Part shown: piece after piece, positions 11,294 through 43,157 of the stretch
How positions within the stretch are numbered: the stretch's first letter is position 1
How the letters are laid out: each line of letters begins with the position of its first letter
NCBI GenBank assembly: GCA_029262295.1
Contig: JAJCZR010000057.1
Location: forward strand, 1 to 45,207
DNA: 45,207 nt
Source: Deltaproteobacteria bacterium
GTDB taxonomy: Bacteria > Desulfobacterota_D > UBA1144 > Nemesobacterales > Nemesobacteraceae
Reading direction: 5' to 3'
The notes under the pieces: model-generated
Database searches by the model: none
What the model was told of the DNA's origin: nothing
What the model saw: the letters and a program-made list of their open reading frames with translations, nothing else
Made by a program: the position numbers and the translations under genes

Positions 11294-11309
11294 ACACAAT
11301 ATGTAGTGT
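11294..11309. promoter_or_regulatory. NrdR-box-like palindrome, single copy
   Basis: ACACAATATGTAGTGT matches the NrdR box consensus acaCwATATATwGtgt at 15 of 16 positions. The usual partner box 31-32 bases away is not present on either side. It lies 14 bases beyond the -35 of a possible promoter for the 97-residue gene and about 190 bases upstream of the rplM promoter. It could be a site for NrdR, or for an unrelated regulator with a similar palindrome. Confidence 0.4.
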
Positions 11310-37660: not shown

Positions 37661-38005
37661 ATGTATAAACAACTGGAAATAAGATGGATTGATCTAAATC
37701 CAACCCGGGGTGCAGAAACTCAAAAGAAAAGGCCTTGCGTTATAATTCAGTCAGATCCAGTGAATCAAGGATCACAGACTTTTATAGTTGCCCCTATCTT
37801 ACCCGGACATAAAGAGTGGCCATTTGCGGTGAATATAAACCCAACAGCACAAAACGGATTGGATAAAGAAAGGCATATAAATCTCAAGCAGTTAAGAGCT
37901 GTTGATAAATCAAGAATTGAGAATAGGCAGGGTGTATTGGAAAAAGATTATATTGAATCAATTAAAGAAGCTTTAAAAATTATTTTTGATATTGGTTATG
38001 ATTAG
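37661..38005 (+). CDS. mazF: MazF/PemK-family mRNA interferase toxin
   Basis: 114 residues. The family motifs are the start QLEIRWIDLNPTRGAETQKK, then RPCVIIQSD, IVAPILPG and HINLKQLRAVDKSRI. The conserved Arg (R32 in KKRPCV) and Thr/Ser of the active pocket appear kept, so the toxin is probably active. It cleaves single-stranded RNA, with target sequence unknown. It forms an operon with the small antitoxin upstream and is followed by repeat DNA. Confidence 0.85.
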   Translation: MYKQLEIRWIDLNPTRGAETQKKRPCVIIQSDPVNQGSQTFIVAPILPGHKEWPFAVNINPTAQNGLDKERHINLKQLRAVDKSRIENRQGVLEKDYIESIKEALKIIFDIGYD

Positions 38006-38629: not shown

Positions 38630-41176
38630 TTAACTACATTTTGAGTAAGCACAGCTTCTGCAAGTTACGCATCCTGATTCAAAAGCAAGTGCCCTGCTTC
38701 CGCAATCCGGGCATGCTTCAAGAGTTACATCTCCCGAGCGGCTACTTTGTTTAGCAGTGACCAACTCTTCAGTCTGGTGCTCTGCACTTTTAAACTCTAT
38801 TGGTGTTGTTTCAGTTTTATCTGAGTCATTTAGAGTTTTTTTTTCACCTACAAAGTGTTTTCTTAGCACTGTGGCTATAGCGTCTGGGATAGACATTACC
38901 AGTTTTCCTTCTGAGAAAACTGGGGAGGAACCTCCAATACCTTCCAGTTGTTCCACCACTTCTTTTACACTGATTCCCGATCTCAGTGCTAATGATACAA
39001 GCCTTCCGGTTGCCTCGGCATCTGCCATAGTGGTGTATCCGGATTTTCCTATTTGTACAAAAACTTCAAACGGTTTGTTATCGTAAGTGTTTACGGTAAC
39101 GTAGAGGTTCCCATAGCCAGTTTTGATTACCTCGGTAAAACCCTTGAGAAATTGAGGTCTCTTTGTAGGTTTTACTTCCGGTATTATGGAGGGATGAGGG
39201 GATGAGGTGAGGTTGGGGTGGGTGGTTGGCATCCCTTCATCCCGGTTAGAAGAGCTTTCCTCATCTTTATTTTTATTTATTTTTTCATCTTCAGTTACAA
39301 GGATTCCGTCCCTTGAGCCTTCTCTGTAAACTGTTACTCCCTTACAGCCAAGCTTCCAGGACTTAAAGTAAATCTTTTCCACTTCTTCAAGTGTGATATC
39401 TGCAGGAAGATTTACTGTGCTTGAAATACATGAATCTATATGCTTTTGAATTGCAGCCTGCATAAGTATTCTGAGCTCAGGTGAAATTGTGTGAGATGTT
39501 ACAAATGTATCAGGAAGATCTTTTTCATCATCTAGCCCGAATTTGTTCATACATTCTTCAACTAGGGGGTGATAAACTTTGAATTCACCTTTAGAGAGCG
39601 ACTCTGAACGGCGGAAATACGATTTTGCAAACATCGGTTCAACTCCACTTGTTGTACCGGCCAGAACGGAACCGCTCCCTACAGGAGGCACTGTGAGTAT
39701 ACAAGCATTACGGAGGCCTTGTTCTTTTATTTTTTCATAAACTCTTTCATCTATAGTTTTAAGAAAAGGTTGTCCAAGGTGGGTATCAAGATCAAAAGCA
39801 GGAAAACTCCCCTTTTCATTTGCAAGATCTGTACTTGCTTCATAAACAATATTTTTAATGTGTTCAAACATCTTATCTGTGAAGTCCACAGCTTCCGCGG
39901 TGTCATATTTAATATTGAGCTTCATGAGCATGTCGCCAAAACCTGTAAAGCCCACTCCAATTCTTCTTGAAAGAGAGGATGCCTTTGTCTGGTATTCGAG
40001 CGGATGCTTTTTCATGTTGTAATCAAGAATGTTGTCGAGAAATCTAACGGAATATTTAAATGCCTGTTCTAGCTGCTCCCAATCTATAGAAGCATTATCT
40101 TCAAATGCATTTTTAACAAACATTGATAGGTTTACATTTCCTAGGCAGCAATTGCCGTAATCTTCAAGCGCCTGTTCGCTGCATGGGTTAACTCCGTTTA
40201 CTTCCATTCCGTTGTACTCTGTAGGAGAGTATTTTTTCACGGTATCCCAAAAAATAAGCCCTGGTTCTGCTGATGACCATGCTGATTTAACAAGCCTGTC
40301 CCATATGTCCCTTGCCCGTACAGTTTTTTTGATTTCAACTTTTTTGCTTTTGAATTTAAGCTCGTAGTCTGTGTCTTCTTCCACTGCTTTCATAAACTCG
40401 TCGTTTACTTTTACAGAGATATTTGCAAACTGCACTTTTGTTCTGGCAGTGTCATTTTTTATGTCTAGAAAATCAATAATATCGGGGTGGTTAACATCGA
40501 TTGTTATCATTAGTGCCCCTCTTCTCCCTGCCTGACCGATTGTGCCAGTTGTAGTGGATAGAAGGTCCATAAAGGAAACTGCTCCGGTTGAATATATTGC
40601 AGAGTTGTTCACTGGAGCACCTTTTGGTCTTAAAACAGAGATGTCTGTTCCAACTCCGCCGCCAAAAGAGTAAGTTCTGGCTGCTTCTTTACACCACTCA
40701 AAGATTCCTTCTATGGAATCTTCTTTTATAGGCATAAAGTAGCAGTTAAGGAGGGTGGCCCTTCTGTTTTGTCCTGCTCCAAAAAGGATTCTTCCACCGG
40801 GTATGAATTTAAAGTTTGAGAGAAGCCAGAAAAAGTTGTTTTCCCACTGCTCTTTTAATTTTTTGTTTTTTTCAGGGGATGCAATTTCTCTTGCAACCCT
40901 GTGCCACATATCTTCAGGGGTTTTTTCTATTATTTCGCCAGATGCATTTCTAAGGGCATATTTTTCATAAAAAACTCTTGCTCGCAGTTCGTCACCACCA
41001 AAAGCGTCAACTGTTTTTTGCGGAATGTCCATAACTCCCTCTGTCTGAGCCACAATTTCCTCTTTTTCTAGGCTTTCTTCCAACTCTTCTTTTAGTTGCT
41101 TTTTTATGGTCTCATGGTCTATGATTCCATTGCCATTTCCGTTAGTATGACCTGAACTGAGTTTCTCATCTGACAT
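38630..41176 (-). CDS. nrdJ: Adenosylcobalamin-dependent ribonucleotide reductase (class II)
   Basis: 848 residues. The catalytic barrel has LLNCYF (Cys about 145), NPCSEQALEDYGNC (Cys about 332) and the PPVGSGSVLAGTTSGVEP finger loop; a ~45-residue low-complexity linker follows, then a C-terminal domain ending in a zinc ribbon (CPDCG, later CVTCRSCAYSKC). It reduces ribonucleotides using B12, with or without oxygen. I start it at 41176, because GGGAGG lies nine bases upstream; the ATG three codons earlier abuts that site. NrdR boxes precede it. A G/C-rich inverted repeat lies inside the linker. Confidence 0.95.
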   Translation of the reverse strand: MSDEKLSSGHTNGNGNGIIDHETIKKQLKEELEESLEKEEIVAQTEGVMDIPQKTVDAFGGDELRARVFYEKYALRNASGEIIEKTPEDMWHRVAREIASPEKNKKLKEQWENNFFWLLSNFKFIPGGRILFGAGQNRRATLLNCYFMPIKEDSIEGIFEWCKEAARTYSFGGGVGTDISVLRPKGAPVNNSAIYSTGAVSFMDLLSTTTGTIGQAGRRGALMITIDVNHPDIIDFLDIKNDTARTKVQFANISVKVNDEFMKAVEEDTDYELKFKSKKVEIKKTVRARDIWDRLVKSAWSSAEPGLIFWDTVKKYSPTEYNGMEVNGVNPCSEQALEDYGNCCLGNVNLSMFVKNAFEDNASIDWEQLEQAFKYSVRFLDNILDYNMKKHPLEYQTKASSLSRRIGVGFTGFGDMLMKLNIKYDTAEAVDFTDKMFEHIKNIVYEASTDLANEKGSFPAFDLDTHLGQPFLKTIDERVYEKIKEQGLRNACILTVPPVGSGSVLAGTTSGVEPMFAKSYFRRSESLSKGEFKVYHPLVEECMNKFGLDDEKDLPDTFVTSHTISPELRILMQAAIQKHIDSCISSTVNLPADITLEEVEKIYFKSWKLGCKGVTVYREGSRDGILVTEDEKINKNKDEESSSNRDEGMPTTHPNLTSSPHPSIIPEVKPTKRPQFLKGFTEVIKTGYGNLYVTVNTYDNKPFEVFVQIGKSGYTTMADAEATGRLVSLALRSGISVKEVVEQLEGIGGSSPVFSEGKLVMSIPDAIATVLRKHFVGEKKTLNDSDKTETTPIEFKSAEHQTEELVTAKQSSRSGDVTLEACPDCGSRALAFESGCVTCRSCAYSKCS
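39191..39243. repeat. G/C-rich inverted repeat inside the nrdJ linker
   Basis: GGGATGAGGGGATG (39191-39204) and CATCCCTTCATCCC (39230-39243) match at 13 of 14 positions as inverted arms, around a G-rich centre (GGTTGGGGTGGGTGGTTGG). Such composition is foreign to the AT-rich gene, and the protein there reads as a T/S/P/H-rich linker. It looks like a REP-type insertion kept in frame. Confidence 0.6.
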
Positions 41177-41194
41177 TAAATCCATCCTCCCTTA

Positions 41195-41210
41195 AGACAT
41201 TATCTTGTAT
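41195..41210. promoter_or_regulatory. Second NrdR box, degenerate
   Basis: AGACATTATCTTGTAT matches the NrdR consensus at 12 of 16 positions. It begins exactly 32 bases before the perfect box at 41227-41242, the three-turn spacing of tandem NrdR boxes, and lies in the likely leader of nrdJ. Confidence 0.6.
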
Positions 41211-41220
41211 GTAGAAGACA

Positions 41221-41249
41221 ATTGAAACACAATATATTGTGTGTGTCAA
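41221..41249 (-). promoter_or_regulatory. nrdJ promoter with a perfect NrdR box as spacer
   Basis: Minus strand: TTGACA (rc of 41244-41249), 17-base spacer, TTCAAT (rc of 41221-41226). The spacer is filled by ACACAATATATTGTGT (41227-41242), a perfect 16-base palindrome and an exact NrdR box. Binding of NrdR when dATP is high would block polymerase. Confidence 0.75.
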
Positions 41250-42611: not shown

Positions 42612-42896
42612 TTATAAAAGATCTTCAATCTTTCTTGCTCCGTGAAGCACCCTTATGACCTCAACAGATTCATTTGCTAAACGGTAAAGTATTAAGTAGT
42701 TGCCAGAAGGAAAGTGTCTCAATCCTTTTGCTACCTCATTTCGTTCTCTTCCAGCCCTGGGGTTTTCTGATAGAAAAATACACTTTTGATGTATTGATTC
42801 AACCGTCTTTAAAGCGGCATTAATATTATCCTGTGCAATATAATCTCCAATTTCTTCCAGATCACTTTGCGCTTTCGGCGTTAATTTATATTTCAT
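42612..42896 (-). CDS. parE: ParE/RelE-type toxin
   Basis: 94 residues. It begins YKLTPKAQSDLEEIGDYIAQ, has the helical hairpin, then GRERNEVAKGLRHFPSGNYL and IRVLHGARKIEDLL. The H-G-A-R-K end is typical of ParE toxins, which inhibit DNA gyrase; RelE-type mRNA cleavage is less likely. It starts three bases after the ParD stop. Confidence 0.88.
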   Translation of the reverse strand: MKYKLTPKAQSDLEEIGDYIAQDNINAALKTVESIHQKCIFLSENPRAGRERNEVAKGLRHFPSGNYLILYRLANESVEVIRVLHGARKIEDLL

Positions 42897-42899
42897 TAT

Positions 42900-43157
42900 T
42901 TATTTGTTGTAGCGAGCTTTCAGTTCATGAAAAAACTTTTCTCCATCAGTCGATTCACCGCTCTCAATCCCTTCCTGCCACAACCTTCGAATGTCCTCTA
43001 TTTTTCTTTCACGGATCTCATTTTTGTATTTCCAGTCGCGAAGTGCATCTCTTATTACTTCACTTGCAGATGCATAGCTTCCTCCGTCCACTGCTTCTCT
43101 TACCATCGCAGCCATTTCGGAAGTGAGTGCAATGCTGATCTTTTTTGTACTTGCCAT
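42900..43157 (-). CDS. parD: ParD-type antitoxin
   Basis: 85 residues. It begins STKKISIALTSEMAAMVREA with the DNA-binding ribbon-helix-helix, then SASEVIRDALRDWKYK and an acidic C-terminal toxin-binding tail. It is first in the two-gene minus-strand operon. GGAGC precedes the ATG and TTGCTA-17-CATACT (minus strand) could be the promoter. Confidence 0.9.
   Translation of the reverse strand: MASTKKISIALTSEMAAMVREAVDGGSYASASEVIRDALRDWKYKNEIRERKIEDIRRLWQEGIESGESTDGEKFFHELKARYNK

Follow-up and report, generated by a model that had tools for sequence, protein, structure and literature searches.

A paired NrdR-box site within the nrdJ promoter is probably the NrdR operator of a class II ribonucleotide reductase gene in Nemesobacterales

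The comparative analysis predicts, with a probability of about 0.92, that a site upstream of nrdJ is the NrdR operator of that gene, at which a repressor tetramer on two boxes would exclude RNA polymerase. The window (the whole 45,207-nt stretch of DNA that was analysed) contains, in minus-strand order, the hexamer TTGACA, one base, the palindrome ACACAATATATTGTGT (box 1), the hexamer TTCAAT, ten bases, ATACAAGATAATGTCT (box 2), GGGAGG and the nrdJ start (Table 1). The spacer between the hexamers is 17 bp long and is filled by the 16-bp box 1 and one base (position 41243), and the two boxes lie 32 bp apart, start to start. The first-pass annotation had described an exact palindrome wholly between the two minus-strand hexamers and a second box with 12/16 matches 32 bases away, and it was right in both the coordinates and the letters. 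Its broader claim, that NrdR controls nrdJ, is well supported by comparison, in that nrdR is intact and the box, promoter and half-box are conserved together; its wording that the gene is 'almost certainly' repressed by a 'direct steric block' is best taken as a prediction from the layout.

Table 1. Features of the nrdJ upstream region and their positions in the window.
Feature	Position	Strand	Remarks
nrdJ	38630..41176	-	adenosylcobalamin-dependent class II ribonucleotide reductase
Shine-Dalgarno GGGAGG	41186..41191	-	GGAGG kept at the matching place in relatives
NrdR box 2	41195..41210	-	ATACAAGATAATGTCT, 12/16; 16-bp gap to box 1
-10 element TTCAAT	41221..41226	-	4/6, without A at position 2
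NrdR box 1	41227..41242	.	perfect 16-bp palindrome ACACAATATATTGTGT, 16/16
TG of putative extended -10 (TGN-TTCAAT)	41228..41229	-	lies in the right arm of box 1
-35 element TTGACA	41244..41249	-	TTGAC(A/C) kept in relatives

Box 1, a full match upstream of a ribonucleotide reductase (RNR) gene, is the sole exact NrdR palindrome in the genome (2.2 Mb searched), where about 0.004 exact matches are expected by chance under a first-order Markov model with the window's dinucleotide make-up. That the surrounding intergenic region is AT-rich speaks for a chance inverted repeat of AT-rich sequence, or for the site of another regulator, a reading made highly improbable by this expectation and by the match to the NrdR consensus at the RNR gene in all 31 aligned upstream regions. 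A scan for further paired boxes, as suggested in the first-pass annotation, showed the pair at nrdJ to be the only one of NrdR type in the genome. In particular, none of the other genomic sites with at most 2 mismatches has a partner of at least 11/16 at 30-32 or 40-42 bp, so that a regulon beyond nrdJ was rejected, and the three other genomic matches to the gapped pair pattern occur at control-level frequency and are otherwise unlike an NrdR box. No box above 12/16 was found in the glyA-nrdR region. One of the partnerless sites lies in the window at 11294-11309, between a 97-aa open reading frame and an rplM-like gene; it is near-perfect (1 mismatch on the minus strand) and is probably a chance match. 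Separately, one relative (G012; L101, position 311 of the reverse complement) carries a lone CACAACATATTGTG box about 100 bp upstream of a 152-aa open reading frame that does not encode an RNR; a similar but weaker site follows the box after 46 bp.

The comparison covered 41 genomes, the window's own and 40 relatives, with NrdR present in 41/41 and NrdJ in 40/41; the nearest named NrdJ records are Candidatus Dadabacteria assemblies at 70-77% identity, which makes it probable that the window belongs to this group. The alignment holds 31 distinct nrdJ upstream sequences of the same order, including this one, is gapless on box 1, and falls into 14 groups below 75% identity. Box 1 is kept in all 31 sequences, with positions 4, 6 and 8-15 invariant, where such counts are not independent trials because the sequences are related, and where conservation of the box core is partly built in because they were collected with the core pattern; a pattern-free pick of the best-scoring site gives the same sites. 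In the comparison of relatives, which the first-pass annotation had proposed, the promoter elements, box 1 and second half-box prove to be conserved together across the order. TTGAC(A/C) precedes the box in 29/31 sequences, one base away in 18 (spacer 17) and two bases away in 11 (spacer 18), while in the two sequences of genus g14 TTGATG abuts the box directly. In the -10 element that follows the box, T1, A4 and T6 are invariant in all 31 sequences, and TTNAAT is found in 28.

A few lineages depart from this layout. The box overlaps the promoter differently in G015 (f2), in G023 (f6) and in genus g14 (G030 and G032). In G015 and G023, the palindrome is kept or half kept and TTGACA or TTGACT lies farther upstream, so that the box would overlap the -10 element instead; in G019 (f6), the spacer layout is kept and the box has diverged. 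Given these exceptions, the overlap of box and promoter is the conserved feature, of which a box that exactly fills the spacer is the most frequent form.

The conserved pair TTGACA-17-TTCAAT has the 16-18 bp separation of a sigma-70 promoter, with a weak -10 element. It was passed over by a general sigma-70 scan because the -10 lacks A at position 2; the scan listed instead, as its only promoter, TTAACA-16-TATTAT just upstream (41278-41251, 10/12). If that were the main promoter, the boxes would lie downstream of the start and NrdR would repress as a roadblock. This is improbable, as TATTAT is unconserved in the relatives, where TTGACA and TTNAAT are conserved around the box, and as the scan's count falls below the mean of shuffled sequences (1 versus 3.1). 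For the conserved promoter, the right arm of box 1 may also supply the TG of an extended -10 element, a feature that the first-pass annotation had missed. The two TG bases are invariant in 31/31 sequences, but constraint on the NrdR box would by itself be enough to keep them, and their role in an extended -10 is therefore a suggestion from the sequence.

Known NrdR operators consist of two 16-bp boxes with spacers of 15-17 bp (or 24-27 bp), both boxes being required (PMC12051234, PMC12176259, PMC9110341); a length of 15-17 bp has been described as optimal and one of 15-16 bp as usual (PMC12051234). Box 2 falls within the shorter spacer range and its half-site is conserved; the paired layout over 'three helical turns' that the first-pass annotation had invoked is indeed a published rule (PMC12051234), which the spacing here fits. 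Because scores of at least 12/16 occur at 0.05% of window positions, a box at one of the few allowed offsets is unlikely by chance. Across the alignment, conservation falls between the boxes and climbs again at box 2. Moreover, the palindrome score averaged over the sequences exceeds that of other offsets by 3.8 sd at offset 31 (3.9 sd in 14 representatives), and the ACAA half of box 2 is placed at column 33 in 28/31 sequences and shifted one base further in the remaining three, this sequence among them. In most relatives, box 2 has a degenerate right half, as would suit a functional box 1 alone, with box 2 a chance match and the conservation at offset 31 due to the leader or initially transcribed region. 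That alternative is also improbable: ACAA is found at offset 31 or 32 in 31/31 sequences while the spacer drifts, the second box is strong in genus g4 (13-14/16), and known NrdRs need two boxes (PMC12051234).

A different arrangement is seen in most leaders of genus g2 (L024, L025, L029, L030, L036 and others), in which the left half of box 2 is kept and is followed by an inverted half, ATCTTGTGC, that is displaced downstream by about one helical turn relative to a normal box; the feature spans about 31 to 58 bases past the box 1 start. The leader RNA would form a hairpin there, with a 14-bp stem in L036 (CATACACAAAATAA/TTATTTTGTGTATG). The feature may be a box whose two halves are split apart by one helical turn, a second box for which the spacer is 24 bp, or a hairpin in the leader.

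The gene downstream encodes a class II RNR, with NrdJ scoring 550.5 bits against TIGR02504 (NrdJ_Z; cut-off 399.95) and containing PF02867, PF00317 and TSCPD domains; a domain search found no ATP-cone in it. Its start was re-assigned to the second ATG (41176 rather than 41185), because relatives begin MASDK/MSSDK and because of the spacing to the Shine-Dalgarno sequence. NrdJ is the only PF02867 match in the genome (98.8% complete), in which no class III NrdD was found either, and a second RNR was therefore rejected. Several f3/f5 relatives (G016, G018, G022, G028, G030, G032, G034 and G035) have an additional reductase-like protein, about 570-615 aa long and sharing 37-42% identity with NrdJ, which this genome lacks. 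By eye, a ParD/ParE-like toxin-antitoxin pair (42612-43157) and a MazF-like open reading frame (37661-38005) flank the nrdJ region.

The first-pass annotation had named the lack of an nrdR gene as evidence that would overturn its claim, and had proposed a search for one with zinc and ATP-cone domains. The genome has one intact copy, on another contig than nrdJ and just downstream of glyA, whose product scores 206.6 bits against TIGR00244 (cut-off 124.65) and contains a Zn-ribbon and an ATP-cone. Both CxxC pairs, D15, R17, R26-R29 and R37 are present in it and do not vary among 30 NrdRs from the order; in Streptomyces coelicolor NrdR, D15, R17 and these arginines touch DNA or set specificity (PMC9110341). 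Even the NrdRs of f6, only 52-53% identical to this one, keep DSR and RRRR. Further, no protein of the genome other than NrdR has an ATP-cone that scores above cut-off, which leaves NrdR as the one dATP sensor for reductase output that can be recognised by an ATP-cone.

NrdR binds strongly with ATP and dATP or with ADP and dATP (PMC12051234, PMC12176259, PMC9110341). At high dATP levels, NrdR carrying ATP and dATP would form a tetramer that grips both boxes, which, at a distance of three helical turns, face the same side of the DNA. Transcription of nrdJ would start near 41214, as judged from the -10 element, placing box 2 at about +4 to +20; with box 1 in the spacer, the bound tetramer would shut RNA polymerase out of the promoter of the sole reductase gene found. 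If the right arm of box 1 is also the TG of an extended -10, then the repressor would be in competition with the sigma factor for these bases. A more far-reaching view, tentative and rather doubtful, is that box and promoter are fused throughout the order, with the TG rescuing a -10 element that lacks A2, NrdR and sigma factor in competition at the sole RNR gene, and NrdR as the sole ATP-cone dATP sensor of overall dNTP supply. Weighing against the operator are the -10 element lacking A2, the mostly unconserved right half of box 2 and the shifts in layout in a few lineages.

Paired NrdR boxes over RNR promoters, nrdJ included, are already well known, and this operator is in line with them. In Pseudomonas aeruginosa, as here, each RNR promoter has two boxes, including that of the class II nrdJ; there, box 1 overlaps the -10 element and mutation of box 2 causes derepression, and the organism has three RNR classes, whereas here NrdJ is the only RNR found and box 1 lies in the spacer (PMC4409342). 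The S. coelicolor nrdRJ operator likewise pairs two boxes at the promoter of a class II RNR and is bound by a dATP/ATP-loaded NrdR tetramer, although its nrdR lies inside the nrdJ operon rather than apart from it (PMC9110341). The Listeria monocytogenes nrdDG operator shares the 16-bp spacer and boxes that overlap the polymerase site, but it serves a class III RNR in another phylum (PMC12051234). No joint mention of Dadabacteria and NrdR was found in the literature searched. The general picture of NrdR is unchanged by this operator; what it would do is extend to a lineage of mostly uncultured bacteria the NrdR rule of two boxes, a whole number of helical turns apart, placed over an RNR promoter, and supply a clean case of one RNR, one NrdR, one site and an enzyme without an ATP-cone, which may aid promoter recognition in the group.
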